Origin: Streptomyces sp. NBC_00259
Lineage (GTDB): Bacteria > Actinomycetota > Actinomycetes > Streptomycetales > Streptomycetaceae
Length of the DNA stretch: 64,000 nucleotides
Reading direction: 5' to 3'
NCBI RefSeq assembly: GCF_036181745.1
Contig: NZ_CP108080.1
Location: 7,691,501 to 7,755,500 of the forward strand
Shown: piece after piece, positions 16,738 to 53,817 of the stretch
How positions within the stretch are numbered: position 1 is the first letter of the stretch
Layout of the letters: each line of letters starts with the position of its first letter
The notes under the pieces: model-generated
What the model saw: only the letters and a program-made list of their open reading frames with translations
Database searches by the model: none
What the model was told of the DNA's origin: nothing
Program-made: the position numbers and the translations under genes

Positions 16738-17470
16738 GAGGGTGTGTCAAGTTAATGGCTGATCTTGGTTGTTGAGTTATCGCTGGTCGGTGGGGGTCAG
16801 GCGGCCGTCGAAGGCGATCTGGAAGGCGTTGAGCGGGGCCTTCCAGCGCATCGTCCAGCGGCGTCGGCCCTTGCCGGTCGGGTCCAGGCTCATCAGCGCC
16901 ATGTAGACGCACTTCAACGCGGCGGCCTCCGACGGAAAGTGGCCGCGAGCCCGGACGGCCTTGCGGATGCGGGCGTTCACGCTCTCGATCGCGTTCGTGC
17001 TGCAGATGACCTTGCGGATCTCGACGTCGAAGGACAAGAAGGGCACCATCTCGGCCCAGGCGTCGGACCACAGCTTGATCACGGCCGGATACTTGGAGCC
17101 CCATTTCTCGGAGAACTCCAGGAACCGCTCGGTCGCGGCGGCCTCCCTCGGGGCGGTGTAGACGGGCTTCAGGTCCTTGGCGACCTTGTCCCAGTCCTGT
17201 CGGGCGCAGTAGCGGATGCTGTTGCGAATCAAGTGAACGATGCAGGTCTGCACGACCGTGCGGGGCCAGACGGACTCGACCGCGTCCGGCAGCCCCTTCA
17301 GTCCGTCGCAGACGAGCATCAGGACGTCCTCAACTCCGCGGTTCTTCAGCTCGGTGAAGACCTGGAGCCAGTGCTTGGCGCCCTCGCCGCCGTCGCCGGC
17401 CCAGATCCCGAGGATGTCGCGGGTGCCCTCGACGGTCACCGCCATCGCCACGTAGATGGGACGGCGACAG
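16738..17470 (-). mobile_element. IS256-family transposase remnant (C-terminal part and one end)
   Basis: The minus-strand frame from about 17465 to the stop at 16777 encodes the last 225-230 residues of an IS256/MULE-type transposase, with GIWAGDGGEGAKHWL, LMLVCDGLKGLPDAVESVW, STNAIESVNARIRKA and a normal C-terminus. The first part of the protein is gone. Beyond the stop, GGGTGTGTCAAGTTAATGGC near 16742-16761 looks like the terminal repeat. The broken side joins directly to a dehydrogenase gene at about 17460-17475, so a deletion removed both the transposase front and the dehydrogenase front. Confidence 0.85.
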
Positions 17471-18098
17471 CCTCCCCTTCGACCAGGCCGCGATCATCCC
17501 CGACGCGGTCTCCACCCCCTACGCCGCCGTCGTCACCACCGCGGGCGTCCGCCCCGCCCAGTCCGTCGGCATCTGGGGCGTGGGCGGAGTCGGCGCCCAC
17601 AACGTACGCCTCGCCCGCCTGGTCGGCGCCGCGCCGATCATCGCCATCGACCCACTGCCCAGCGCCCGCAACCGCGCCCTGGAATTCGGCGCGGACTTCG
17701 CCCTCGACCCGGCCGCCGACGACTTCGCCGACCAGGTCCGCGCGGCCACCGCCGGACGAGGCCTCGACTTCGCCTTCGACTGCGCCGGCGTGCCCGCCGT
17801 CCGCGAGCAGGCCGCCGCCGCACTCGGCCTGGGCGGCTCCCTCATCCTGGTCGGCATCACGCCCAAGCCCCTCACCATCACCGAGGGCCTGACCTTCAAC
17901 TACATGATGAAGCAGGTCCGCGGCCACTACGGCGCCACCCCCGAGGGCGTCACCGAGCTGGTCCAGCTGGCCTCCAACGGGCGCCTCGACCTTGCCCCCT
18001 CCATCACCGACCACATCCCCCTCGCCGACGCCGCCGACGCGGTCAACCGGCTGGAGAACAAGATCGGCGACCCGATCCGCCTCATCCTCGTCCCCTGA
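17466..18098 (+). pseudogene. Zinc alcohol dehydrogenase lacking its N-terminal part
   Basis: From DSLPFDQAAIIPDAVST at the IS junction, the frame runs 211 codons to TGA at 18096-18098. It includes the Rossmann fold GIWGVGGVGAHNVRLARL and the end NRLENKIGDPIRLILVP. The catalytic domain with all zinc ligands is missing. The remaining part is closely similar to residues 137-348 of the intact dehydrogenase at 44724-45770, so this was a second copy destroyed by the IS256-linked deletion. An internal ATG at 17580 cannot give an active enzyme. Confidence 0.88.
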
Positions 18099-31566: not shown

Positions 31567-31803
31567 TTGTCCGCCCACTGCCAACTGACCGGCGCCCAGC
31601 CGGGCTTCGGCAACAACATCTCCCATTCGCACCGGCGTACGTCCCGGCGCTTCGACCCCAACATCCAGCGCAGGCGGTACTGGCTGCCGAGCGAGGGCAG
31701 GCATGTACGCCTGACGCTCAGCGCCAAGGCGATCAAGACGATCGACAGCATCGGTATCGAGGCGGCCGTGGCCCGCATCCGCGCCCGGAGGGTGAAGGTC
31801 TGA
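31567..31803 (+). CDS. rpmB: Ribosomal protein bL28, zinc-independent
   Basis: A 78-aa L28: [40 protein letters not shown], ending [13 protein letters not shown]. Only one of the zinc-site cysteines (Cys5) remains. The likely start is TTG at 31567, with GAGGCAGG upstream; no ATG or GTG fits. The stop overlaps the S14 ATG. Confidence 0.92.
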
Positions 31804-32108
31804 TGGCCAAGCAGAGCAAGATCGCGAAGAACGAGAAACGCAAGGCGATCGTCGAGCGGTACGCGGCCCGGCGGGCCGAACTGAAGGAGACCATCCGCCG
31901 CCCGGACACCCCGGAGGCGGAGCGGGCCGCTGCCCTGGCGGAGCTCCGGCGGCAGCCACGCGATGCCAGCGCGACCCGGGTACGCAACCGGGACAGTGTC
32001 GACGGCCGGCCCCGGGGGCACCTGCGGCGATTCGGGCTGTCCCGCGTCCGTATGCGCGAGCAGGCCCACGCCGGCTTCCTCCCCGGAGTCACCAAGTCCT
32101 CCTGGTGA
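31803..32108 (+). CDS. rpsN: Ribosomal protein uS14, zinc-independent
   Basis: A 101-aa long-form S14: [40 protein letters not shown], then [20 protein letters not shown]. No zinc cysteines. It is co-translated with rpmB and followed by a perfect hairpin at 32131. Confidence 0.95.
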
Positions 32109-32130
32109 TCCTCGCAATCGATGCGCTGTC

Positions 32131-32156
32131 GGCCGTGACTCGGCGGAGTCACGGCC
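32131..32156 (+). terminator. Terminator hairpin after rpsN
   Basis: GGCCGTGACTC (32131-32141) pairs perfectly with GAGTCACGGCC (32146-32156) across a 4-nt loop. Confidence 0.65.
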
Positions 32157-32239
32157 GGCAGCGTGCCGGAAACCGCCCTGTGGACGCCCCAATGCGGCCG
32201 TCACGCTGGGCTCTTCCGTGCGGCGTGCGTCAATGCACC

Positions 32240-32990
32240 CGACGGTCTTCCAGAGGAGCCGCCCTCAGCTCCTCTGTCGTGCGGGGCAGATGGTGGTTGA
32301 CCAGTCGGGCCGAGTTCCGACGACCGCGATGCTGCTCGTGTTGTGGAGCAGGGCCGCGAGGACGGGATTCATGGATCCGCCCGCGCTGGCGAGCAGACCG
32401 GCGAGGTTGACGCCGATCGCCAGGCCGTAGTTTGCCGCACGACGCGCAGTGTGTGCCGGTTGAGTTCGAGGAAGGCGGCGACCTGGCGCAGGTCGTTGCC
32501 GGCGAGGCGAGGGCGAGGCCGAGGGCGGAGTCGGGGGCGAGGACGAGGGCGGGGGCGTCATAGGTGCCGTCGCCGACCATGGCGACGGTGTGCCCTTCGC
32601 CCTGCAGGTCGCGGATCAGTTGGAGTTGGGCGTGGACTTCCGTGATGCCGAGGGTGTCGGCGACTACCTGTGCGGCCTCGGGTGCGTCGCCGGTGAGCAG
32701 CACCAGGCGGGAGACGCCGAGATCTCACAGCTGCTGGATGACGGTCCCGGCCTCGGAGCGTACGGCGCGGAGACCCCGAGCAAGCCGATGAGGTCTTCGT
32801 CGTGGGCGAGACAGATGAAGGTCTCGCCGCCCCGTCGGAGCCGTTCGGTCCATCCCTGGGCCTCGTCGGTCAGAGCGACGCCTTTGTGGCCGAGCAGTGC
32901 GGGGTTGCCGACCAGTAGCCGGGTGCCGTCCAGTTCGGCGCGCATGCCCATGCCGAGGACGACCTCGCAGGCATGGTGGATCGGCACGGA
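32240..32990 (-). pseudogene. P1B-type metal ATPase fragment (zinc/cadmium exporter type)
   Basis: Pieces of the ATP-binding and C-terminal part appear in shifted frames: CEVVLGMGMRAELDGTRLLV near 32970-32910, DLGVSRLVLLTGDAPEAAQV near 32730-32670, the hinge as GDGTYDAPAL (normally GDGxNDAPAL) near 32580, then NYGLAIGVNLAGLLASAGG and LAALLHNTSSIAVV near 32430-32320. There are several frameshifts, a stop after VIQQL, and no phosphorylation domain or membrane front. It is the remnant of a heavy-metal pump inside the zinc-starvation locus. Confidence 0.8.
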
Positions 32991-33192
32991 TCTTCAGCAA
33001 CCCGTCGGGTTCGTTCACGTCGGCTCGCGGTTGTCTGGGAGAGGCGTCACGATAGCCGTGGGATCCGCTGCTCCCAGAGGTTGGTCGATCCCGCGATCGT
33101 CGGCACACGGTCGAACCGGCATGGCAGCCTCTACTACCCCCGTACCGGGTTGGGCAGTGCCGTGGCTGCGACCACTGCCCAACCCGGAGGCT

Positions 33193-34407
33193 TTACATCC
33201 GCGGTACGAGCTCGGCGTGCTCGTGGCCGCGACCGTGCCCGTACCCCTGCTCGGACACGTGCTCGTGCTCGCATGCGTCGTCGATGCCGTAGGTGTCCCA
33301 CGCGGGAAACGGATCGACGGCCGGGAGGCTCTCGCTTTCCTCCATGAGGCAGTCGGTGAGGGCGGCCTGGAGTGCCTCGGTGCGCAGGCCGGTGCCGATG
33401 AAGACCAGTTCCTGGCTCTGGGCGTCGCTGTCCGCGTCCCGGATGCCCGAGGGTTCGAAACGGGCTACGGAGCCGGCCTGCGACCACAGTCCCGTCACGT
33501 GGGGACGGCTCGCCAGCCGGAAGAAGCCCTTGGAGCGCAGCATCTGTCCGAAGGTTCCGCTGTCGAGTTCCTCGGTGACGAACGTCCACAGGCGGCCCGG
33601 GTGGAACGGCACCTCGGAGCGGAAGACCATGCTGGAGATGCCGTACTCCTCGGTCTCCGGGACGTGGTCGCCGTTGAGTTCCATGACCCAGCCCGGGGCC
33701 TGCTGCGCACGCTCCAGATCGAAGAGGCCGGTGCCGAGCACATCGCCGAGGCCCACCCGCCCGCGGGTGGCAGCCACGATCCTGGCCGCCGGGTTGAGAC
33801 GAGTGAGAGCCGCCCGGAGCCGGTCGGCGGCCTCCGCATCGACAAGGTCGAGCTTGTTGAGCACGATGACATCGGCGAACTCGATCTGGTCCATCAGCAG
33901 GTCGCTGACGGTGCGTTCGTCGTCCTCGTACTGCTCGAGTCCCCGCTCGACGAGCCCGTCCCCGCTTTCCAGTTCCGGCAGGAAGTTGGCGGCGTCGACG
34001 ACCGTGACCATGGCGTCGAGGCGGGCCAGGTCGCCGAGGGTGGCACCGTCTTCGCGTGGGAAGGTGAAGGTCGCTGCGACGGGCATCGGTTCGGAGATGC
34101 CGCTGGACTCGATGAGGAGGTAGTCGAAGCGGTCCTCGCGGGCGAGGCGGTCGACCTCCTTGAGCAGGTCGTCGCGCAGGGTGCAGCAGATGCACCCGTT
34201 GGTCATCTCGACCAGGTGTTCCTCGGTCCGCGACAGGGCGGCCTCGCCGCCGCGCACCAGTGCGGCGTCGATGTTGATCTCGCTCATGTCATTGACGATG
34301 ACCGCGACGCGCAGACCTTCGCGGTTGCTCAGAACGTGGTTGAGCAGAGTGGTCTTGCCCGCTCCGAGGAAGCCGGACAGGACGGTGACGGGCAGTCGTT
34401 CGGCCAT
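33193..34407 (-). CDS. COG0523 GTPase metallochaperone with His-rich tail
   Basis: A 404-aa CobW-type GTPase. Walker [10 protein letters not shown] is at 12-20, the metal motif Cys72-x-Cys74-Cys75 (GCICC), and the NKLD base-recognition site is present near 190. The C-terminal domain ([14 protein letters not shown] onward) ends with a histidine-rich tail ([20 protein letters not shown]). Family members hand zinc or other metals to client enzymes. It starts six bases after the L32 stop, so both are read from the second Zur-type box. Confidence 0.92.
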
Positions 34408-35246: not shown

Positions 35247-35717
35247 TCACCGGTTGTCGCGGCCCCGGTCGGACCGGTTCGAGTCGCGGTCGTTCCGCTC
35301 CCAGTCGCGGTCGGACCGGTTCGAGTCGCGGTCGTTCCGCTCCCAGTCGCGGTCGGACCGGTTCGAGTCGCGGTCGTTCCGCTCCCAGTCGCGGTCGGAC
35401 CTGTCGTGCTTCCAGCCGCAGTCCTCGTCATCCCAGTAGTTGAAGTGACCGCGACGGTCGTACTGGTCCGAGTTCGCGTAACAGTCGCTGTGGTGTCGGG
35501 TGTTATACCCGTCCCAGCGGTAGTCCACCTCGGAGTCGTGCCGGTAGGCAACACGGTCCCCGCGGTGGTCGTCGGTCTTGACGCCGACGGTCGGGCGCTG
35601 CACGTGCGCAGACTCAGGAACCGCGGCCGAGGCGGTGCCCCCGGCGCCGAGTACGGCTCCACTCGCGACCGCGGCGGAGGCGGCAGCGAGAGAAATGCGC
35701 TTCGTGAGCTTCCTCAT
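35247..35717 (-). CDS. Secreted Asp/Arg/Asn-rich repeat protein
   Basis: A 156-aa protein with a signal peptide (MRKLTKRISL, a hydrophobic core AVASGAVLGAGG, cut near TASAA) and a mature low-complexity part. Three copies of a 14-aa unit (SDRDWERNDRDSNR) sit near the C-terminus; a middle part contains two Cys (SDCYAN, DEDCGW). AAGGAGATATCC precedes the ATG. It has the same overall design and the same signal-peptide end (GAVLGAGGTASAA) as the protein at 8407-8832, and a matching upstream palindrome. Function unknown. Confidence 0.75.
   Translation of the reverse strand: MRKLTKRISLAAASAAVASGAVLGAGGTASAAVPESAHVQRPTVGVKTDDHRGDRVAYRHDSEVDYRWDGYNTRHHSDCYANSDQYDRRGHFNYWDDEDCGWKHDRSDRDWERNDRDSNRSDRDWERNDRDSNRSDRDWERNDRDSNRSDRGRDNR
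35266..35391 (-). repeat. Three tandem 42-bp coding repeats
   Basis: Units at 35266, 35308 and 35350 are essentially identical and in frame, each encoding 14 residues (Ser, Asp, Arg, Trp, Glu, Asn). A partial fourth unit begins at 35392. Confidence 0.8.
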
Positions 35718-35887: not shown

Positions 35888-35906
35888 TTCCATACGCTGT
35901 ATGGAA
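35888..35906. promoter_or_regulatory. Palindromic operator TTCCATAC-N3-GTATGGAA
   Basis: A perfect 8-bp inverted repeat around GCT, 180 bp upstream of the secreted-repeat gene at 35717. It matches the paired palindromes at 9010 and 9046. The rest of 35718-36150 has no supported gene. Confidence 0.55.
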
Positions 35907-36172
35907 GTACAGTGATATCAGAGTATGTCCGGAAATGTCCAACTCGGGGTTCGCGGAGTCGAGGTGCAGCTGGCTGAATCTGGTCGCGACCTGGGTGTGC
36001 GAGCCTGTCGAGTAGTCGAGGCGTGGTTTGCGGCGGACCGGCGGTCGTGCGGTGTCGGTCCGCCCTGCTGATGGCATCCCCGGTCGACGCGCCGATCTGG
36101 CTGGGGATGCCAGGGCTGCCTGCTTCTGTGACCGCATGCGACTGAAGGGGCCGGTGTGACGCAGGTCACTTT

Positions 36173-36215
36173 GAGACAAGTTGACTCATAGGCTCTCTGT
36201 GAGTCAATCTGTCTC
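36173..36215 (+). promoter_or_regulatory. GAGAC...GTCTC operator/promoter, copy 1
   Basis: Arms 36173-36188 (GAGACAAGTTGACTCA) and 36200-36215 (TGAGTCAATCTGTCTC) match as inverted repeats at 14 of 16 positions. TTGACT at 36181 is a likely -35. From GAGAC to GTCTC spans 43 bp, exactly as upstream of the gene at 53206. Confidence 0.7.
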
Positions 36216-36309
36216 ACACAAGGGTTCGCGAAAGGCTAGATATCGCGACTATCCACAGATATCGCTAATGCCGTCGCATTCGCGCATGAGGTCTCTAATG
36301 GAGGAAACC

Positions 36310-36939
36310 ATGACCGCTACGACCACGACGAAGGCGGGCAAGGGCAACACCGACGGAGTCGTCTCCGAGATGGCCACCTACTTCCACGTCAAGCCGGGGC
36401 ACGAGCAGGAGGTGGCGGCGGCCTGCCAGCGGATGGTCGAAGCCCTGAAGCAGGCCCCCATGGCCGCCACCATCAAGACCGGTCTGCGGGACACCCGCCA
36501 CGTGCTCTTCAACAACGGCACGGAACTGCTGTGGGCCACCACCTTCGAGACCGAGTGGGCCCCCTACATCGACGACGCGTTCCTGACCGTCGGCTTCGAG
36601 CACTTCGTGGACTGGATGCAGCACACCACCGAGTGGGAAACCAAGATCGCCCCGTGGATCGAGGAGTCCGGCGGCCTCGAGTCGCTCACGGGCGACAAGA
36701 CGCGCGAGGGCTTCGAGGAGCACATCCTCGCCAACATGGCCGGCATGAGGCAGATCCTGCAGGACGGGCAGCAGAAGGCCGCCGCCTACTGGAACCCGGT
36801 CAGCTTCCTGACGATGTCGGAGATCACCAAGGCCGACCGGATCAACGCCGCCTTCCAGGAGGTCCTGGACGACCCCGCCGCCGAGGAGGCCCTCCAGCAC
36901 CCGGCCCTCCAGCCGCTGCTCGCCCAGGCCGCCAGCTGA
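36310..36939 (+). CDS. 209-aa hypothetical protein, ABM-like fold (copy 1)
   Basis: A soluble 209-aa protein. The first half reads like a dimeric alpha/beta-barrel (ABM-type) domain: MATYFHVKPGHEQEVAAACQ, then TGLRDTRHVLFNNGTELLWA and FVDWMQHTTEWETKIAPWIE. The second half is helical (EEHILANMAGMRQILQDGQQ). I do not know a named family. The ATG at 36310 has GGAGGAAACC. An identical protein is encoded at 40154-40783. Its operator and its neighbours (MFS exporter, TetR, DyP peroxidase) suggest a stress or detoxification role; a haem- or small-phenol-handling function is a guess. Confidence 0.85.
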   Translation: MTATTTTKAGKGNTDGVVSEMATYFHVKPGHEQEVAAACQRMVEALKQAPMAATIKTGLRDTRHVLFNNGTELLWATTFETEWAPYIDDAFLTVGFEHFVDWMQHTTEWETKIAPWIEESGGLESLTGDKTREGFEEHILANMAGMRQILQDGQQKAAAYWNPVSFLTMSEITKADRINAAFQEVLDDPAAEEALQHPALQPLLAQAAS

Positions 36940-36952
36940 CCCACCACACACC

Positions 36953-36982
36953 CCGGAGGGGGCACCATCCCGCCCCCTCCGG
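36953..36982 (+). terminator. Hairpin after copy 1 of the 209-aa gene
   Basis: CCGGAGGGGGC pairs perfectly with GCCCCCTCCGG (11-bp stem, 8-nt loop). The same hairpin follows copy 2 at 40797-40826, where it precedes the DyP gene and would act as a partial terminator. Confidence 0.6.
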
Positions 36983-37110
36983 CCCCCACCCCCTCCACAA
37001 CCCACGTGAGCACGTCGACACCCTGCCCACCCTCCAGGAGTGGGGCCTCGACCACGGGTGAGTCGCGGGCGACAACGCGCCCAGGTCCCGACCTGGCCGC
37101 CGGAGAGGGC

Positions 37111-37240
37111 GCGTAGTGCCAGCCCAACGAGCAGCGCGCCGTACGTCAGGCCTCGGTGCTCGCCGACAACGTGGTCGCGGCTCTGTGCGGCAGGCCGCTG
37201 AAGGAGTTGCGGCACAAGGACCTGGGCGCGGCAGCCGTCT
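37111..37240 (+). pseudogene. Fragment of an NADH dehydrogenase-like flavoprotein
   Basis: One frame reads NEQRAVRQASVLADNVVAAL followed by CGRPLKELRHKDLGAAAV, which looks like the segment of NDH-2-type enzymes just before the C-terminal part. No start, FAD site or C-terminus is present. The remainder of 36983-37452 is otherwise without a gene. Confidence 0.4.
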
Positions 37241-37452
37241 GCCGACGCTGATCCGCGAGATGCCCGTGTTCGTGGGCTGGATCTGGCCTCCCTGCTGAAT
37301 CGGGAAACCGCCGGCTTCATCGAACTGGACCAGCCGCGCGCCCCGTTCACCGAGGCGGCTACGCCGTCCCACAGTCGTACCTGATCTCTCCGCCCGTTCT
37401 TTCCTTTTCTCTTTCCGTCATACCCCCGTCCGCTGTCTGGAGGGCTGTCCCC

Positions 37453-38964
37453 ATGTCCCAGAACGTCATCGCCGCCGCTCGCGGCGCTGAGACCGCACCT
37501 GAGAATTCGCCCGTCGAACCGTCACACCAGCGCCGCTGGTGGATCCTGGTGGTCATTTCCCTCGCCCAACTGATGGGCGTCCTCGACGGCACGATCGTGA
37601 ACATCGCCCTGCCGTCCGCCCAGCGCGACCTGGGCTTCTCGGACGCCGACCGGCAGTGGGTGGTCACCGCCTACGCGCTGGCCTTCGGCAGCCTGTTGCT
37701 ACTCGGCGGCCGGGTCGCAGACCTGGTCGGGCGGAAGGTGACCTTCCTGGTGGGTCTGACCGGGTTCGCGGCCGCTTCCATACTGGGAGGCGCGGCGAAC
37801 GGATTTGGCATGCTCGTCACCGCGCGCGCGATCCAGGGCCTGTTCGCTGCCCTGCTGGCCCCGTCCGCGCTGTCGCTCCTGATGACCACCTTCACCGATC
37901 CTCGCGAGCGGGCGAAGGCTTTCACCGTCGCAGGCTCGGTCGCAGGCGCGGGTGGAGCCATCGGCCTGATCCTCGGCGGGGTGCTGACCCAGTACCTGGA
38001 CTGGCGCTGGACCATGTACGTCAACGTGGCGTTCGCGGTGGTGGCATTCGTCGGTGGCGCAGCCCTGCTGCACCGCACCCCGCGGGACGCATCCTCGAAG
38101 CTCGACGTCCCCGGCACCATGTTGGTCTCCGCCGGCCTGTTCTGCCTGGTCTACGGTTTCTCGAACGCCGAGACGCAAGGCTGGGGTTCGGTGGCGACCT
38201 GGGGCATGCTGGCGGCCGGTGCCGTACTGGTGGCCCTCTTCGTCTGGCGGCAGAGCAGGGCGGCATATCCGCTGCTGCCCTTGCGGGTCCTGCTGGACCG
38301 TAACCGCGGCGCCTCCTTCGCCGCCCTCTTCGTCACTGGCGCGGGCATGTTCGGCGTGTTCCTGTTCCTGACCTACTACCTGCAGCAGGGCCTCGGTTAC
38401 AGCGCCCTGAAGACCGGCTTCGCCTTCCTGCCCATGATCGTGGCATCGTCGTCTGCCTCCGCCGTGGCCAACAACGTCCTGGTGCCCCGCATAGGACCCA
38501 AGCCGGTGGTACCACTGGGCATGGCCATTGCGGCCGCCGGCCTGGTATGGATGACCACGCTGGACCTGAACAGCGGATACATGACGCAGGTACTGCCGCA
38601 GCTGGTGCTGGTCGGCGTAGGGCTGGGCACGGTCATCGCGCCCGCGATAAGCCTGGCCACCTCCGGCGTGGCCGCGGCCGACGCCGGATCCGCGTCCGCC
38701 GCCGTCAACACCGTCCAACAGGTCGGCGGATCCATCGGCGTCGCCCTGCTCAGCACGATGGCCTCCGAAGCAGTGACCGACTACCTCTCAGACCGCAACC
38801 CCAAGGACCCCGGCGTCCTGGCCCAGGCCGGCCTGGAGGGCTACTCCACCGCTTACTGGTGGTCGGCGGCCATCTTCGTCATCGGCCTGGGCGTGACCGC
38901 CCTGCTCTACCGCCGCGGTGTGCCCCAGCAGGACGAGAACGTTGCACCCGTCGTTCACATGTGA
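37453..38964 (+). CDS. MFS drug exporter, DHA2 (14-helix) family
   Basis: A 503-aa transporter with 14 predicted membrane segments. Helix 1 carries QLMGVLDGTIVNIALPSAQR, followed by RQWVVTAYALAFGSLLLLGG RVADLVGR, the DHA2 signatures, and motif C is visible as AGSVAGAGGAIGLILGGVLT. The ATG at 37453 follows CTGGAGGGCTG. It lies between copy 1 of the 209-aa gene and the TetR gene on the same strand, so it is probably the exporter of the compound sensed by that TetR. Confidence 0.9.
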   Translation: MSQNVIAAARGAETAPENSPVEPSHQRRWWILVVISLAQLMGVLDGTIVNIALPSAQRDLGFSDADRQWVVTAYALAFGSLLLLGGRVADLVGRKVTFLVGLTGFAAASILGGAANGFGMLVTARAIQGLFAALLAPSALSLLMTTFTDPRERAKAFTVAGSVAGAGGAIGLILGGVLTQYLDWRWTMYVNVAFAVVAFVGGAALLHRTPRDASSKLDVPGTMLVSAGLFCLVYGFSNAETQGWGSVATWGMLAAGAVLVALFVWRQSRAAYPLLPLRVLLDRNRGASFAALFVTGAGMFGVFLFLTYYLQQGLGYSALKTGFAFLPMIVASSSASAVANNVLVPRIGPKPVVPLGMAIAAAGLVWMTTLDLNSGYMTQVLPQLVLVGVGLGTVIAPAISLATSGVAAADAGSASAAVNTVQQVGGSIGVALLSTMASEAVTDYLSDRNPKDPGVLAQAGLEGYSTAYWWSAAIFVIGLGVTALLYRRGVPQQDENVAPVVHM

Positions 38965-39124
38965 CCGATGGCCGGGTCTGTCTGAAAGGGCGCGGGCCGT
39001 GTTGCAGTCACCTGCTGCGACCATCTGCCGTGCACGCGGAAGCAACGACGGAGGTGGCAGGGCGCCTTTGACGGGGCAGCCCCGGGAGAGTCGTGCAGAT
39101 TCGCTGCGCCTTACCTCTCTTTCC

Positions 39125-39171
39125 CTATGAGACGTGATGTCTCATAGTAAACTGCAAGCCGTATCGTCTCA
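39125..39171 (+). promoter_or_regulatory. TetR self-operator
   Basis: CTATGAGAC (39125-39133) and GTCTCATAG (39139-39147) form a perfect 9-bp inverted repeat around GTGAT; an extra half-site GTCTCA lies at 39166-39171. The span from the first GAGAC to the last GTCTC is 42 bp, close to the 43 bp at the other sites of this set. Confidence 0.72.
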
Positions 39172-39189
39172 CAGAAGGGAAACGGAGAG

Positions 39190-39777
39190 GTGGAAGACAG
39201 AACCGATCCGCGTCTGTTGCGCAGTCGTGAGGCCATGGTCTCGGCGGCCACCGCGTTGCTCACGGAAGGCGGGCTGGAGGCCGTGACGCATCAAGCGGTT
39301 GCCGCCCGGGCCGGCGTTGGCAGGGCCACCGTCTATCGGCACTGGCCCGGCCTTCTCGACCTGCGGCTGGCCGCGCTGGAAGCCGGCATGCCGCCTCTGC
39401 CTCCAATGCCTGAGGAGCTTCGGGTCGCTTCGGGCAACGATCCGCGAGCCGAGCTCGTTCACCGTCTGGGCGTGCTTGCCGAGCGATGGGACGACGAGCG
39501 AGCAGGCGCCGTCCTCGCTGCGGTCCTCGGCGGCTCACGGCATGACGAAGGCATGCGTCGCCTCCGCGATTCGCTGCTGAACCAGATCGCCGATGCCCTG
39601 CGTCCCGCTGTTGCCGAGGCCGTGAAGCGCGGCCAGCTCCGGCCCGACGTCACCCCCGAAACCTTTGCCATGGCCACCGCGGGGCCCCTGTTCTTCGAGC
39701 GCTTTCTCGCCGGGAACCGCCTGGGGCGTGACACCGTGGACGCCGTTGTGGATGCCGCCATGCGGGGCTGGTCCTAG
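39190..39777 (+). CDS. TetR-family regulator of the GAGAC regulon (inferred)
   Basis: A 195-aa TetR protein: LLRSREAMVSAATALLTEGG, then AVAARAGVGRATVYRHWPGL as helix-turn-helix, and a helical ligand domain. The GTG at 39190 starts 19 bp after the last half-site; the Shine-Dalgarno is weak (AAGGGA or GGAGAG). The perfect palindrome just upstream is its best self-operator, and related half-sites in front of the 209-aa genes and the gene at 53206 are likely further targets. Confidence 0.87.
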   Translation: MEDRTDPRLLRSREAMVSAATALLTEGGLEAVTHQAVAARAGVGRATVYRHWPGLLDLRLAALEAGMPPLPPMPEELRVASGNDPRAELVHRLGVLAERWDDERAGAVLAAVLGGSRHDEGMRRLRDSLLNQIADALRPAVAEAVKRGQLRPDVTPETFAMATAGPLFFERFLAGNRLGRDTVDAVVDAAMRGWS

Positions 39778-40016
39778 CGTCGTTGAATCCCCGGCGTGGC
39801 TGAATGTCCGCCGTTCGGCCGGGGCTCATCGAGGTGGCAGTCCTTCGCATCCGTGCAGGGCTGCGAGGGTCCTGTCACCTCGGGTTCCCCCACGCTTCAG
39901 TAGCGGCCGGCCGGCCTGTCGGCACCAACCGATCGGCTCGCAGTCCGTCGCGGGCGGGTGTCACCGATCCGATCATGCGCACCTTCGAACTGAACCGGTG
40001 TGACGCAGGTCACTTT

Positions 40017-40059
40017 GAGACAAGTTGACTCATAGGCTCTCTGTGAGTCAATCTGTCTC
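40017..40059 (+). promoter_or_regulatory. GAGAC...GTCTC operator/promoter, copy 2
   Basis: Same arms as copy 1 (40017-40032 and 40044-40059), unchanged. It would control the 209-aa gene and, by read-through, the DyP/DUF4331/TPR genes. Confidence 0.7.
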
Positions 40060-40153
40060 ACACAAGGGTTCGCGAATAGCTAGATATCGCGACTATCTAC
40101 AGATATCGCTAATGCCGTCGCATTCGCGCATGAGGTCTCTAATGGAGGAAACC

Positions 40154-40783
40154 ATGACCGCTACGACCACGACGAAGGCGGGCAAGGGCAACACCGACGG
40201 AGTCGTCTCCGAGATGGCCACCTACTTCCACGTCAAGCCGGGGCACGAGCAGGAGGTGGCGGCGGCCTGCCAGCGGATGGTCGAAGCCCTGAAGCAGGCC
40301 CCCATGGCCGCCACCATCAAGACCGGTCTGCGGGACACCCGCCACGTGCTCTTCAACAACGGCACGGAACTGCTGTGGGCCACCACCTTCGAGACCGAGT
40401 GGGCCCCCTACATCGACGACGCGTTCCTGACCGTCGGCTTCGAGCACTTCGTGGACTGGATGCAGCACACCACCGAGTGGGAAACCAAGATCGCCCCGTG
40501 GATCGAGGAGTCCGGCGGCCTCGAGTCGCTCACGGGCGACAAGACGCGCGAGGGCTTCGAGGAGCACATCCTCGCCAACATGGCCGGCATGAGGCAGATC
40601 CTGCAGGACGGGCAGCAGAAGGCCGCCGCCTACTGGAACCCGGTCAGCTTCCTGACGATGTCGGAGATCACCAAGGCCGACCGGATCAACGCCGCCTTCC
40701 AGGAGGTCCTGGACGACCCCGCCGCCGAGGAGGCCCTCCAGCACCCGGCCCTCCAGCCGCTGCTCGCCCAGGCCGCCAGCTGA
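40154..40783 (+). CDS. 209-aa hypothetical protein, ABM-like fold (copy 2)
   Basis: Identical at the protein level to the copy at 36310-36939, with the same GGAGGAAACC before the ATG. It is followed by a hairpin and, 106 bp later, by the DyP peroxidase gene. Being first in this operon suggests that it works with the peroxidase, for example as a small-molecule or haem handling partner; this is inference. Confidence 0.87.
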   Translation: MTATTTTKAGKGNTDGVVSEMATYFHVKPGHEQEVAAACQRMVEALKQAPMAATIKTGLRDTRHVLFNNGTELLWATTFETEWAPYIDDAFLTVGFEHFVDWMQHTTEWETKIAPWIEESGGLESLTGDKTREGFEEHILANMAGMRQILQDGQQKAAAYWNPVSFLTMSEITKADRINAAFQEVLDDPAAEEALQHPALQPLLAQAAS

Positions 40784-40889
40784 CCCACCACACACCCCGG
40801 AGGGGGCACCATCCCGCCCCCTCCGGCCCCCACCCCCTCCACAACCCACGTGACGACTCCGTCCACGCAAGACAGTTCTGGAAGGCATC

Positions 40890-42218
40890 ATGAGCATCGA
40901 TCAGGGCAGCGCCCTAGAGCTCGGCGACATCCAGGCCGCTGCTCTCCAGCCACGGCCGACGCCCTACGCGGGCTTCTACCTCGCCCTGCGCATCGACGAC
41001 CGGCGGCAGGGGCGCGAGCTTCTGCGGCGGCTCACCCCTGTCCTCGACTCGGTGGCCTCGTTCGACCTCGAGCGTCAGGTCTCGCTCGCCGTGGCACTCA
41101 GCTTCCAGGGCCTGAAGGCCTTGGGGGTGCCCGAGGAGTCGCTGGCCACCTTCCCGGAGGAATTCCGGGAGGGCATGGCCGCGCGGGCGGAGTACATCGG
41201 GGACGTTGGAGAAAGCGCGCCGGAGAACTGGGAGGGCCCGCTCGGTTCAAACGACGTGCACCTCATCCTGGCCGGACTCGCCCCGGATGCAGCCCGCCTG
41301 GAGACGGTCCTCCTCCTGGCCCGCGACGCCCTGCGCGATCTGCCCGGCGTCGTTGCCATCTGGCAGCAGGAGGTGCACGTCGGACCGGACGAGAAGGAGC
41401 CGTTCGGTTTCCGGGACGGCATCGGTCAGCCGGCGATCGAGGGCACGGGGATCCCCGGCACCAATCCGTACGAAGAGCCTCTCAGGGCAGGCGAGTTCGT
41501 TCTCGGATACAAGGACGAGACCCACGGCATCGCACCCGTTCCGCAGCCCGCGGTGCTTGGGCGCAACGGAACGTACGTGGCCTTCCGCAAGCTGCACACG
41601 CGAGTCGCCGACTTCCGTCAGTATCTCCGCGACCGTGCCAAGGACCCCGCCGACGAGGAGCTGCTGGCGGCCAAGTTCGTCGGTCGCTGGCCCAGTGGTG
41701 CCCCGTTGACGCTGACGCCGGACAAGGACGACCCGGAACTCGGTGCCGATCCCGAGCGCAACAACGCGTTCATGTACGGCGACGACCCGGAGGGCCTCAA
41801 GTGCCCGGTGGGCGCACACGCCCGGCGGATGAACCCGCGGGACGCGGTCGTCACCGGTGAGGTGCGTCTGCACCGCATGATCCGGCGCGGTACGACCTAT
41901 GGCCCGCCGCTGGCCAAGGGAGTGCTGGAGGACGACGGCACCGACCGCGGCATCATGTTCGCCTTTGTCGGAGCGCATCTGGACCGGCAGTTCGAGTTCG
42001 TCCAGCGGCAGTGGGTGAACGACGGCAAGTTCATCGGGGCACCCGCGGAGAAGGACCCGCTGATCGGCGTGAACGACGACGGCGGCTTCACGGTCCCGCG
42101 CCAGCCGATCCGCCGCCGCTTCAAGGGACTGCCGCCGTTCGTCGTCAACCGGGGTGGCGAGTACTGCTTCATGCCCGGACTGTCGGCGCTGCGCTGGATC
42201 GCCGACCTGGACACCTGA
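40890..42218 (+). CDS. DyP-type haem peroxidase
   Basis: A 442-aa dye-decolourising peroxidase. The GxxDG motif FGFRDGIGQP has the catalytic Asp176, and CPVGAHARRMNPRD has the proximal haem ligand His310. No Tat or Sec signal is seen, so it should be cytoplasmic. GGAAGGCATC precedes the ATG at 40890. It uses hydrogen peroxide to oxidise phenols or dyes. No encapsulin gene is nearby. Confidence 0.9.
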   Translation: MSIDQGSALELGDIQAAALQPRPTPYAGFYLALRIDDRRQGRELLRRLTPVLDSVASFDLERQVSLAVALSFQGLKALGVPEESLATFPEEFREGMAARAEYIGDVGESAPENWEGPLGSNDVHLILAGLAPDAARLETVLLLARDALRDLPGVVAIWQQEVHVGPDEKEPFGFRDGIGQPAIEGTGIPGTNPYEEPLRAGEFVLGYKDETHGIAPVPQPAVLGRNGTYVAFRKLHTRVADFRQYLRDRAKDPADEELLAAKFVGRWPSGAPLTLTPDKDDPELGADPERNNAFMYGDDPEGLKCPVGAHARRMNPRDAVVTGEVRLHRMIRRGTTYGPPLAKGVLEDDGTDRGIMFAFVGAHLDRQFEFVQRQWVNDGKFIGAPAEKDPLIGVNDDGGFTVPRQPIRRRFKGLPPFVVNRGGEYCFMPGLSALRWIADLDT

Positions 42219-42254
42219 CATCTCTCACGATCAACACGACAAGGAGCGTTTCTC

Positions 42255-43424
42255 ATGGCTGACCACTTCTCCGGGCCGCGTGCCATCGCCGACCCTGCGT
42301 CCGACATCTGCGACGTGTACGCCTTCCCGAGTCCGGAGCGGCCGGGGAAGCTGGTGCTCGTCCTCAACGTGCTCCCGGCCTCGGCCCCCACGGCCCTGTT
42401 CTCCGACGCGATCACTCACCGTTTCCGCGTCCGGCCGATCACATCCGTGAGCGAGGGTGCCGCTGCGGCATTCAATGTCGGCGCGGACGAGTACGTCTTC
42501 GACTTCACCTTCGACGCCCCCCAGAAGGTCGACGGCACGGACACCCTCGTGCAGGTGGGCACGTGCCAGGCGCCCGACGGCCGGAAGGTCGCCTTCCAGG
42601 TCGGCAACGAGGTGCCCACCGAGGCCGAGGGACTGAAGATCTTCGCCGGATCGCGGCTCGACCCGTTCTTCATCGACTTCGTGGGCGTGATGGTCACCGA
42701 GGCGACGGGGAAGCTGGGCTTCAGGTCTGATGCCAGCAACGTTCTGGAGGGCCTGAACGTGCTGAGCATCGTGCTTGAAGTCGACGCCGCGGTGCTCGGT
42801 CCGGCCGCCGGCTCGCTGGTGGCGGTCGTCGGCGAAACGGTGACTTCCGGCGGGCGCCCGTACCGGCTGGAGCGCATGGGCCGGCCGGAGATCAAGAACG
42901 TCGTCATGTCGCCCAAGAAGTTCGACACCGTCAACAGCGATCTGGAGATCCGCGACCTCTTCAACGAGGAGGACGCCTTCAGCATGCGGCCGGACTATGC
43001 GGGCACCTACCGCGCACGGCTCAATGCCAACCTGGCCTTCTACGACGGCCTGGACGGCAAGACCGCTTGGCCGCTGGACGAGCAGGGTGCTCACCCGTTG
43101 ACCGAGCTGCTGATGGCGGACTTCCTCGTCGTCGACCTGTCCAAGCCCTATTCCGAGGACGGCTGTTTCGAGATCGAGACGGCCCTGCTCGCTGGCCGCC
43201 CGCACACGACCTGCGGTGGCCGGTCGTTCAACGACGACATCGTGGACACCCTCTTCACGCTGCTGGTGGGCGGCATCGACGGCGAGCGCATCAGGGACGG
43301 CGTCGACCACCCGACGCAGCTGGCCACCCGCAGCTTCCCCTACCTGAACGCTCCCAACCCGACCCCGCCGGACCTGGGGGCCCGCCTGGCCGCGCTGGCC
43401 CCTCCCGGGGAGGCAGCGGCATGA
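42255..43424 (+). CDS. DUF4331 protein
   Basis: A 389-aa protein of the DUF4331 family: MADHFSGPRAIADPASDICD and YAFPSPERPGKLVLVLNVLP, then VGADEYVFDFTFDAP and GRPYRLERMGRPEIKNVVMS. The family function is unknown; members often occur beside peroxidases or TPR proteins. There is no signal peptide here. AAGGAG stands before the ATG, and the stop overlaps the TPR gene start (ATGA), so the two are co-translated. Confidence 0.85.
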   Translation: MADHFSGPRAIADPASDICDVYAFPSPERPGKLVLVLNVLPASAPTALFSDAITHRFRVRPITSVSEGAAAAFNVGADEYVFDFTFDAPQKVDGTDTLVQVGTCQAPDGRKVAFQVGNEVPTEAEGLKIFAGSRLDPFFIDFVGVMVTEATGKLGFRSDASNVLEGLNVLSIVLEVDAAVLGPAAGSLVAVVGETVTSGGRPYRLERMGRPEIKNVVMSPKKFDTVNSDLEIRDLFNEEDAFSMRPDYAGTYRARLNANLAFYDGLDGKTAWPLDEQGAHPLTELLMADFLVVDLSKPYSEDGCFEIETALLAGRPHTTCGGRSFNDDIVDTLFTLLVGGIDGERIRDGVDHPTQLATRSFPYLNAPNPTPPDLGARLAALAPPGEAAA

Positions 43425-44494
43425 CCGGGGCGTCTCTCCAGGAGTGCGAGCCGGTGACGACGAGTGGCACCATCGCCGTAGCGAATCTGCACGGGCAGAT
43501 CGACGGCCTGGCCGTACGGCTCAGCCGTGCGGGTACCGGGGAGAGGCCGGCGGCTCCATCGGCGGTGGCGCAAGGGGCGAGTCTGATCGACCTTCTCAAC
43601 CTCCGAGGCCACATTCTGGGCCGCGTTGCCGACTACGAGCGGGCCGCGGAACTCGCTGAGCGGCTCGTGCACGTTGCACCCGAGGACGGCACGGCCCTGC
43701 TCGCCCGCGCCAGGACGCGGGCGACCCTGCACCGCTTCGCCGAGGCCGTTGCCGACCTCGGCGAAGCGGGCCGGAGCGGCGCCGACGAAGCCGCACTGGA
43801 CGCCGAACGCGCCGTCGTCTTGCAGGCCCTCGGCTACTACGCGGATGCCATGGCCCTGATCCGCAAAGGCGCTGACCGGCAGAGCGACTTCACGACGCTC
43901 GGCGCGCTCGCCGTACTTCAGGCCGAGCGCGGGGAGGTCACCGAGGCAGAGGATCTGTTCGGCGACGCGAGGCGCCACTATCGGGGGACCTCGCCGTTCC
44001 CACTCGCCCAGCTGGACTTCCGACGCGGTGTGATGTGGCACCGCGAGGGCGACCTCGATGCGGCCCGCGCATGCTACGAGGCCGCCCGGCGCCGTGTGCC
44101 CGACTACGCGCCGGCACTGGGCCACCTTGCCGAGGTCGAGCTGCTGCGCGGAAGCCCTCCGGCCGCGGTCGCCCTCCTGCGTCCCCTCACCCGGACCAGC
44201 GACGACCCCGAGTACGCCAGTCACCTCGCGGCCGCGCTGCACGCAGGCGGCCGCGTCCACGAGGCGCAACAGTGGCGCGAGCGCGCTGTGACGGGTTACG
44301 ACGATCTGGTGGTGCGCCACCCGGAGGCGTACGCCGACCACGCGGCCGAGTTCTGGCTCACCGTGGGGGCCGATGCCGACAGAGGGCTCGAGCTGGCTCT
44401 GCAGAACCTCACATTCCGTCAGACGGCCCGTGCACATGCTCTGTTCCAGCGAGCTGTCCTCGCGCAGAACTGGGTTGCAGAGGCTGCTCCATAG
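43421..44494 (+). CDS. TPR-repeat protein
   Basis: A 357-aa helical repeat protein with several TPR-like units, for example RVADYERAAELAERLVHVAP, GYYADAMALIRKGADRQSDF and GDLDAARACYEAARRRVPDY. It is probably a scaffold. It is last in the operon with the peroxidase and DUF4331 genes and may assemble the other products. Confidence 0.82.
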   Translation: MTGASLQECEPVTTSGTIAVANLHGQIDGLAVRLSRAGTGERPAAPSAVAQGASLIDLLNLRGHILGRVADYERAAELAERLVHVAPEDGTALLARARTRATLHRFAEAVADLGEAGRSGADEAALDAERAVVLQALGYYADAMALIRKGADRQSDFTTLGALAVLQAERGEVTEAEDLFGDARRHYRGTSPFPLAQLDFRRGVMWHREGDLDAARACYEAARRRVPDYAPALGHLAEVELLRGSPPAAVALLRPLTRTSDDPEYASHLAAALHAGGRVHEAQQWRERAVTGYDDLVVRHPEAYADHAAEFWLTVGADADRGLELALQNLTFRQTARAHALFQRAVLAQNWVAEAAP

Positions 44495-44723: not shown

Positions 44724-45770
44724 ATGGACACCATGCTGGCAGGACGCGTCCACCTGGACACGAAGAAGTTCGTCATGGAGGAGATTCCCGTACCCGTACC
44801 CGGACCGGGTGAAGTACTGATCGAGGTGAAGGCGGCGGGCGTGTGCCTCTCCGACCTCCACCTCATCGACGGAAGCATCTCTCCGCTGCACCTGAACTCC
44901 AATGTGCTCACCCTCGGGCACGAGATCTCCGGTGTCATCCATTCCCTGGGACCCGGCCTCAAGCGGGACCTGACCGTCGGCACACGCGTCGCCCTTCAGG
45001 CGGGGCAGCCCTGCCGCGAGTGTGCCACCTGCGTCAGGGGCGGCACGTGCACGTCGTTCCGCGGCCGAGGCGTCGACTACGACGGTGGCTGGTCCCAGTA
45101 CACGATCGCCCGTGAGGACACCGTCGTCCCCATCCCCGACACACTTCCCTTCGACCAGGCGGCGATCATCCCGGACGCCGTCTCCACCTCGTACGCGGCC
45201 CTGGTCGAGACCGTGCAGGTGCGTTCCGCCCAGGCCGTGGGCATCTGGGGAGTCGGCGGGGTGGGCGCCCACGCTGTCCGGCTGGCCCGCATGATGGGTG
45301 CGACGCCGATCATCGCCGTCGACCCGCTGCCCAATGCGCGTGCGCGAGCCCTCGCGTTCGGCGCCGATATCGCGCTCGACCCGACCGATCCTGGTTTCGC
45401 CGAAGCCGTGCTGCGGGCCACCGACGGCCTGGGCCTGGACTACGCCTTCGACTTCGCGGGCGTTCCCCGGGTCCGGGAGCAGGCGTCGCCCCTCCTCGGT
45501 GACCACGGTTCGCTCGTCCTGGTGGGTATCACCATGGAGCCGCTGAAGATCTCGGAGAAGATGACCTTCAACCTGAAGAACAAGAAGGTGTACGGACACT
45601 ACGGATCCTCGTTCGACCACGTCTACGAGCTGATCCGGCTGGCCGGCAGCGGCCGTCTCGACCTGGCCCCATCCATCACCGACCACATCTCCCTGCCTGA
45701 CGCCCCCGAGGCGCTCCACCGCCTGGAGAACAAGATCGGCGATCCGATCCGCCTCATTCTCGTTCCCTGA
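44724..45770 (+). CDS. Zinc-dependent alcohol dehydrogenase
   Basis: A 348-aa medium-chain dehydrogenase with full zinc sites: Cys41, His66-Glu67 (catalytic), Cys97, Cys100, Cys103, Cys109 (structural). The NAD fold reads GIWGVGGVGAHAVRLARMMG. The C-terminal two-thirds are closely similar to the truncated gene at 17466-18098, so this is the intact paralogue. The ATG at 44724 is used; an in-frame ATG follows at 44733. It is 93 bp before a ribA-type gene. The substrate is unknown. Confidence 0.88.
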   Translation: MDTMLAGRVHLDTKKFVMEEIPVPVPGPGEVLIEVKAAGVCLSDLHLIDGSISPLHLNSNVLTLGHEISGVIHSLGPGLKRDLTVGTRVALQAGQPCRECATCVRGGTCTSFRGRGVDYDGGWSQYTIAREDTVVPIPDTLPFDQAAIIPDAVSTSYAALVETVQVRSAQAVGIWGVGGVGAHAVRLARMMGATPIIAVDPLPNARARALAFGADIALDPTDPGFAEAVLRATDGLGLDYAFDFAGVPRVREQASPLLGDHGSLVLVGITMEPLKISEKMTFNLKNKKVYGHYGSSFDHVYELIRLAGSGRLDLAPSITDHISLPDAPEALHRLENKIGDPIRLILVP

Positions 45771-53106: not shown

Positions 53107-53154
53107 CTATGAGACGACTTGACTCACAAAGTATCTCCGATACATACTGTCTCA
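53107..53154 (+). promoter_or_regulatory. GAGAC...GTCTC operator/promoter of the DUF1269-type gene
   Basis: CTATGAGAC (53107-53115), three bases, then TTGACTCA (53119-53126), and TGTCTCA (53148-53154). GAGAC to GTCTC spans 43 bp, and the order GAGAC-N3-TTGACTCA is the same as in the duplicated blocks. An inner palindrome GTATC-TCC-GATAC lies at 53131-53143. Confidence 0.68.
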
Positions 53155-53205: not shown

Positions 53206-53817
53206 ATGGACAGGACCGAGAACATCGTCGTCTTCCGCTTCACCGAGCAGGCCTCCGCCTACCAGGCGCTCAGTGAGCTGCAGCGGCTTGGCAGCTCGAC
53301 CGTGGAGGTCCGGGGCGCGATGCTCGTCGAGCGCCAGGAGGACGGGACGGTGCGGATTCCGGAGGGCGTGGACACCAGGGCGGGAGAGGGCACCCTGGTC
53401 GGCGGGCTGGTCGGTTCGGTGGTGGGCCTGCTGGGCGGACCGCTTGGCGTGGTGCTGGGCTGGGGCACCGGCGCCCTGGTGGGCGGCGGCGCCGACTGGC
53501 GGCGGGCGACGGAGAGTTCCGGCTTGGTGGCCCTGGTGGCCGACGAGGTCAGCGCTGGCAGCACGGTGCTGGTTGCCGAGGTCGCCGAGCGCGACACGGC
53601 AGCGATCGACGTGTTCGCCATGCGATTCGGTGCGGTGCTTGAGCGCAGGCCGGCGGAGCGGGTGCGAGCCGAGGTCAAAGCGGTCCGCGAGGCGGAGTCG
53701 GCGGCGGAACGCCATGCCGCCAAGGCACGCCGGGAGCAGAAGAAGGTCCAGTTGGAAGCGACGATGGAGGCGCGCGGGAAGGCGCTCAAGCAGCGGTTCC
53801 AACGCCCCGCCGCCTGA
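53206..53817 (+). CDS. DUF1269-type protein with glycine-rich membrane segment
   Basis: A 203-aa protein. The N-terminal domain (ENIVVFRFTEQASAYQALSE) is followed by a glycine-zipper-like hydrophobic stretch (LVGSVVGLLGGPLGVVLGWG, about residues 65-95), and a long charged coiled-coil tail (AERHAAKARREQKKVQLEAT). GAGGAG precedes the ATG at 53206. Membrane stress proteins have this form. The shared operator links it to the 209-aa genes and the TetR regulator. Confidence 0.8.
   Translation: MDRTENIVVFRFTEQASAYQALSELQRLGSSTVEVRGAMLVERQEDGTVRIPEGVDTRAGEGTLVGGLVGSVVGLLGGPLGVVLGWGTGALVGGGADWRRATESSGLVALVADEVSAGSTVLVAEVAERDTAAIDVFAMRFGAVLERRPAERVRAEVKAVREAESAAERHAAKARREQKKVQLEATMEARGKALKQRFQRPAA

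Follow-up and report, generated by a model that had tools for sequence, protein, structure and literature searches.

DrDyP, a DyP-type haem peroxidase of Deinococcus radiodurans (gene DR_A0145; Protein Data Bank (PDB) entries 8RE2 and 8RE3), was reported to contain a six-coordinate low-spin haem and to show no activity at physiological pH, and its authors speculated that other proteins, such as encapsulin, may govern it in vivo (PMC10820274). That paper uses neither the word "operon" nor the word "catalase". These entries were the closest solved relatives (phmmer E 6.7e-129) of a DyP-type peroxidase encoded in a 64,000-nucleotide stretch of Streptomyces sp. NBC_00259 (hereafter the window; bases 7,691,501-7,755,500 of a single-contig 8.16-Mb chromosome), behind the second of two copies of a gene for a 209-residue protein that we named P209. 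From the sequence comparisons described below, we consider it probable that P209 is a partner subunit dedicated to a separate clade of DyP haem peroxidases, that of DrDyP, and that it works in the window within a TetR-controlled scheme. The natural role of DyP enzymes is an open question, and a family such as P209, whose linkage with a single DyP clade holds whether one starts from P209 or from DyP, would provide a direct test.

A D. radiodurans replicon carries the DrDyP gene, whose product is the same protein as the PDB chain, one base 3' of a P209-family gene, with a catalase-family gene downstream. Like DrDyP, the window DyP keeps the catalytic Asp, His, and Arg and has a P209-family gene directly upstream; unlike it, the window enzyme has Gly rather than Met at position five of the GXXDG motif and is accompanied by DUF4331 and TPR proteins in place of the catalase-like third component. 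Encapsulin-DyP systems are a further point of comparison. The resemblance is that a second protein may determine how a DyP behaves in the cell, in line with the speculation about DrDyP, whereas P209 gave no match to a shell protein in Pfam. The window genes concerned are the following.

36310-36939, plus strand: P209 copy 1, an open reading frame of 209 aa.
40154-40783, plus strand: P209 copy 2, coding sequence identical to copy 1.
40890-42218, plus strand: DyP-type peroxidase of 442 aa (TIGR01413 102.6 bits, cut-off 100.5; PDB 8re3/8re2; D176, H310, and R332).
42255-43424, plus strand: DUF4331 protein of 389 aa (PF14224 104.4 bits, cut-off 27).
43421-44494, plus strand: TPR protein of 357 aa (Pfam).

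The motif residues of DyP enzymes are the Asp of GXXDG, the proximal His, and the distal Arg; in an alignment of 81 sequences, D176, H310, and R332 of the window enzyme were each conserved in 80, with a gap in the other. The enzyme exceeded the cut-off of the TIGR01413 superfamily model, but its Pfam DyP_N score of 22.6 fell below the threshold of 27.5.

Used alone as a query, the P209 protein found a match in 10 of 150 Streptomyces genomes, and its profile matched in 45 of 392 genomes when Streptomyces was searched and in 11 of 396 across the phylum, with the window's own genome counted in each. The window and the stretches around the profile matches gave 70 actinobacterial loci; plasmid loci and the stretches L020-L022, L034, and L035 were kept outside this set (L096 and L098 are the contigs of L020 and L021). 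A DyP gene was present within 3 kb of P209 in 68 of the 70 loci, the remaining two being contig ends of metagenome-assembled genomes (MAGs). Both genes lay on the same strand in every linked locus (68/68), with P209 first in 63. The association with DyP in other genomes, on which the earlier note had staked its proposal, was borne out by these loci, and it extended beyond DUF4331 and beyond Streptomyces to include DrDyP and natural fusions.

The reverse test, starting from DyP, was limited to 52 of 90 matches by discarding the 38 at the bottom of the ranking, which were short and had E values of 1.6e-6 or higher. All 25 full-length DyPs of the clade (at least 42% identity) in the 150 Streptomyces genomes had P209 within 1.2 kb, whereas none of the 24 other DyPs in the same genomes (29-38% identity) did, so that within the TIGR01413 superfamily P209 was confined to one clade. 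Three additional high-identity matches were fragments of 183-651 bp that lacked P209 (25/28 when they are counted). When the P209 profile was searched as a control against the 21 genomes holding those 24 DyPs, the single match, in genome G033, was on another contig beside the clade DyP of that genome. Taken in both directions, the genomic link between P209 and this DyP clade is very strong.

The same pattern was found in the plasmid collection, where each of the 47 records with a P209-family match had DyP adjoining or fused (41 within 3 kb by coordinates, 2 NBC megaplasmids via the second copy, and 4 by tblastn), some of the DyP genes being partial or in pieces (NZ_CP048637, L157, and L160). 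The plasmid hosts included Rhizobium, Sphingomonas, Nostoc, Deinococcus, Acinetobacter, Rhodococcus, and Streptomyces. A 976-aa protein from a Rhizobium leguminosarum plasmid joins a P209-like domain to DyP, and a 1423-aa protein from a Pararhizobium plasmid (L146:2661-6932) joins P450, P209-like, and DyP parts; in two Skermanella plasmids the P209-like, DyP, and P450 genes are separate and consecutive. Because of the gene fusion, which is the strongest sequence argument available here, P209 and DyP would be expected to cooperate physically, and we regard such a partnership as likely. The distance matrices of P209 and DyP were correlated at 0.80 over 68 pairs (best of 999 permutations, 0.13) and at 0.50 over 17 non-redundant pairs (best permutation, 0.33). 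Tandem, diverged P209-like genes stand beside DyP in L085 (4848-6131), L144, and L134 and might encode a heteromeric partner.

P209 belongs to an unnamed protein family. Searches of Pfam, NCBIfam, PHROG, and PDB gave the window protein no hit that passed the threshold, seven divergent family members tested against Pfam gave no match, PDB searches with P209 or its profile returned matches solely at E above 0.6, and no relatives were confirmed in the viral contigs searched. Family members are roughly 160-245 aa long or form a fused domain, share a core motif of the type GTLHDARxVxFDNDTxLLFATxFDGxWDxYIDDF, and have Arg63 in 87 of the 87 aligned sequences with a letter at that position. The earlier note had likened part of this protein to an ABM-type barrel, for which the sequence support stayed below threshold: the similarity to ABM (PF03992) covered 27 N-terminal residues at 16.5 bits (E 0.0099), below the gathering cut-off of 23.1, and hhalign against 9 ABM domains of the same genome returned a probability of 0.7%.

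The remaining features of the locus, and two features farther along the window, are listed here.

36151-37009, plus strand: repeat block, copy 1 (859 bp, 3 mismatches versus copy 2).
36170-36190, no strand: palindrome O1, copy 1, a putative TetR operator (motif scan).
36198-36218, no strand: palindrome O2, copy 1 (motif scan).
36953-36982, plus strand: hairpin after P209 copy 1 (RNA fold).
37453-38964, plus strand: DHA2/EmrB-type MFS exporter (TIGR00711 241.6 bits, cut-off 230.2).
39126-39146, no strand: perfect palindrome before tetR (motif scan).
39190-39777, plus strand: TetR regulator of 195 aa (TetR_N and TetR_C_11 above cut-off).
39995-40853, plus strand: repeat block, copy 2 (by comparison with copy 1).
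40014-40034, no strand: palindrome O1, copy 2 (motif scan).
40042-40062, no strand: palindrome O2, copy 2 (motif scan).
40797-40826, plus strand: hairpin between P209 copy 2 and DyP (letters the same as in copy 1).
44742-45770, plus strand: zinc-type alcohol dehydrogenase, operon membership uncertain (also 3' of the operon in the NBC megaplasmids).
53108-53128, no strand: sixth palindrome of this type (motif scan).
53206-53817, plus strand: 203-aa protein encoded after the sixth palindrome (weak DUF1269 match below cut-off).

The two 859-bp blocks, in direct orientation at an offset of 3844, each contain two palindromes, the P209 gene, and a stable hairpin. Their three mismatches (36233, 36234, and 36254) all fall in the leader, and the 630-bp coding copies are identical. 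The arrangement reported in the earlier note, with the blocks around the exporter and TetR genes and the second leading into DyP, DUF4331, and TPR, was confirmed, as was the extent of the repeat from leader to hairpin. A DNA search of the host genome returned the two block copies plus two short matches (89 and 40 bp). The copy 1 hairpin has an 11-bp stem and a folding energy of -28.1 kcal/mol (z -5.2; 0 of 200 shuffles equally stable), and the copy 2 hairpin is kept in NBC_01549, where its fold was computed. There was no T run 3' of the hairpin, and scans of 35900-41000 gave no terminator-like site with an intrinsic-terminator model and no match to a sigma-70-like promoter. Lying between P209 copy 2 and DyP, the second hairpin might keep P209 in excess over DyP. 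The segment between P209 copy 1 and the exporter (37010-37452) looks like a gene remnant, with a 76% DNA match to G000:3141067-3141155; at the same place in L034 there is a 174-aa open frame that by eye resembles the end of an NAD/FAD oxidoreductase.

Three further Streptomyces genomes, NBC_01549, NBC_01562, and NBC_01340, share the two-copy layout, the latter two on linear megaplasmids; NBC_01549 and NBC_01562 were not counted as independent because the four flanking genes compared show no difference between them. Within a genome, the P209 copies differ at 0 (window), 2 (NBC_01549), 2 (NBC_01562), and 1 (NBC_01340) of 630 sites, whereas between the window and the other three they differ at 48-50 of 630, a divergence like that of the flanking genes (6.4-8.0%). 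Since the copies are closer within each genome than orthologues are between genomes, the duplication is older than the split from the megaplasmid lineage, and the copies have been homogenised in both lineages. A very recent duplication, one of two origins offered in the earlier note, was rejected on this comparison, and the other, gene conversion, is what keeps the copies alike. Their identity may serve dose, for which the earlier note assumed selection, or equal control of the exporter and peroxidase arms. An assembly artefact is also unlikely, given the single 8.16-Mb contig and the same two-copy layout in the related megaplasmids. Exceptions to the homogenisation were seen in MAG SH_71_13, whose copies are 83-85% identical, and in the copy 1 leader of NBC_01562, which has diverged. 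In NBC_01562, the interval between tetR and P209 copy 2 measures 2.8 kb (L034:15800-18600), versus 0.4 kb in the window, and contains pieces of open frames that look transposase-like by eye.

These data bear on the idea that the gene pair chiefly serves as a recombination substrate or has survived by chance, in which gene conversion would keep the copies identical with no need for dose. The homogenised blocks in two lineages agree with it, as does the persistence of both copies in the MAG at their lower identity. We find it doubtful, as reading frames and palindromes are intact for both copies in all four genomes with the full layout (window, NBC_01549, NBC_01562, and NBC_01340), and it addresses the duplication alone, not the link between P209 and DyP.

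The palindrome TNTGAGNCN5GNCTCANA occurs at six sites in the 8.16-Mb genome, all of them in the window (one at tetR, two at each P209 copy, and one at 53108), and a reversed control motif occurs at none; allowing one mismatch added 4 sites, versus 2 for the control. The promoter of tetR and those of its presumed targets therefore share a palindrome, as in autoregulated TetR repressors, and this supports TetR control of the locus, with the regulator predicted to bind these sites. The core motif was present in 11 of the 86 stretches scanned, including the window: in the megaplasmid lineage it stands at tetR as well as at P209, L021/L098 have it at P209, the MAG pieces L135 and L136 also contain it, and the diverged loci L103 and L104, whose TetR proteins show 72-75% identity, have it between P209 and TetR or DUF4331. 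Because the other 75 stretches lack the palindrome, this TetR belongs to part of the family. The regulatory role given to TetR in the earlier note is accordingly upheld by a highly specific shared motif at this locus and is not general. The palindrome at 53108 precedes the gene of the 203-aa protein, 8.6 kb after the TPR gene.

The third component of the system is interchangeable, being catalase-like, DUF4331 with TPR, a P450, or a member of an unnamed family of 337-346 aa that we designate X. Within 5 kb in the 70 loci, tblastn with a few seeds detected a catalase-like gene alone in 32, X in 19, DUF4331 with TPR in 9, DUF4331 alone in 1, catalase-like with DUF4331 and TPR in 1, and none of these in 8, a class that may hide diverged members because the seeds were few. 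The catalase-like protein is the commonest of them. Its profile matched PDB entry 3e4w best (E 2.1e-6), which we take to be a small catalase-related organic hydroperoxidase, with ordinary catalases close behind. Proteins of this type (3e4w/3e4y) are thus the best-scoring PDB relatives of the catalase-like component, whereas the window operon lacks such a gene and has DUF4331 and TPR in its place. The X family had no Pfam or PDB match; L081:5487-6500, L083:6819-7859, and their relatives contain many invariant His, Asp, and Arg residues.

The inclusion of DUF4331 in the set, as proposed in the earlier note, holds for only some members of the family: 11 of 70 loci contain the domain, and TPR is also present in 10 of these. 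Five close relatives of the window DUF4331 (at least 46% identity over at least 160 residues) were present in the 150 Streptomyces genomes, four beside P209-DyP and one as a partial copy with TPR in a place lacking DyP and P209. Weak relatives are common (48/150), and DUF4331 alone is no specific marker of the system. In Bradyrhizobium, a single protein combines DUF4331 with a Polyketide_cyc2 domain, and TPR comes next. No paper naming DUF4331 was found by our literature search, and the present results give this domain a genomic context. SfLAP membrane proteins were encoded in 19 of the 70 loci, and lipid-type enzymes near the Deinococcus, Sphingomonas, Rhizobium oryzihabitans, and Acinetobacter loci. 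Together with the third components, these neighbours point circumstantially to a hydrophobic substrate, which might be an organic hydroperoxide or lipid-like. Phenolic substrates, brought up in the earlier note, are conjectural for this system.

We propose the following scheme for the window. TetR, relieved by some small molecule, would derepress its own gene, both P209 copies, and the operon of P209 copy 2, DyP, DUF4331, and TPR, with the exporter gene following P209 copy 1. P209 would dock on DyP and either open the haem pocket (activation) or present the substrate; the exporter would remove the parent compound or the product, and DUF4331 with TPR would fill the slot held elsewhere by the catalase-like protein, the P450, or the X family. 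Binding of P209 to DyP, followed by activation or feeding of the enzyme, is the role that we consider most likely.

Alternatively, P209 may act in the same pathway with no contact to DyP, for instance as an independent small-molecule binder or an enzyme handling the product, the linkage then reflecting co-regulation only. This would suit the position of copy 1, which is separate from DyP and adjoins the exporter, the weak ABM-like match in the N-terminal third of P209, and the X gene, present within 5 kb in the 19 loci above and, in most of L108-L123, located between the P209 and DyP genes. Contact is favoured, however, by the single proteins in which P209 and DyP are fused and by the confinement of P209 to one DyP clade, and we judge the contact-free alternative unlikely.

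Several observations nevertheless weigh against P209 as a dedicated DyP subunit. Some of the co-divergence of the two proteins is shared ancestry. P209 also occurs apart from DyP: in the window and the NBC megaplasmids, copy 1 adjoins the exporter, and the 20 kb of NBC_01446 (L022) contain the exporter and a truncated P209 but lack DyP. Control by TetR does not extend to the P209 family as a whole, and the reported pH effect in DrDyP may be unrelated to any partner. No homology was detected by hhalign between P209 and the ABM, DyP-half, catalase-like, DUF4331, or X families, and AlphaFold2 produced an unusable model of P209 (mean pLDDT 40.5, 4-sequence alignment) that offered no fold or interface; the model of DUF4331 was likewise unusable (mean pLDDT 31.7, 3-sequence alignment).

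That the locus is primarily an export-led antibiotic or toxin resistance system, with TetR and the exporter as its core and the peroxidase operon and P209 as auxiliary detoxifiers of one compound class, in line with the earlier note, is very unlikely: the TetR gene, the shared palindromes, and a DHA2 exporter of the tetracenomycin/lincomycin efflux type fit it, but an MFS protein at least 85% identical to the window exporter is found only in the window, L096, and L136 among the 70 loci, and P209-DyP persists without it elsewhere.

Extending the partner-subunit reading, we tentatively raise the possibility that a widespread DyP clade functions solely within a multi-component haem system, in which P209 would be an obligate activator or substrate presenter and the second module would be interchangeable. 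If true, this would account for the inactivity of isolated DrDyP at neutral pH and place DUF4331 in a functional setting. The P209 partner, a DyP/DUF4331 operon, and the fusions were not described in the papers reached, coverage being incomplete and hence no proof of novelty; no P209 or DyP operon is named in the reference-list and table entries of PMC13210998.

Other parts of the window yielded minor observations. A shorter stretch at 17466-18095 is 70% identical to the alcohol dehydrogenase gene at 44742-45770. A tandem repeat at 35257-35404 (21-nt offset between copies, strongest match at 42) lies within the gene of a small minus-strand protein (35247-35717). At 31803-34407, a ribosomal protein S14 gene is located near a CobW GTPase gene, a pairing known from zinc-limitation regulons.

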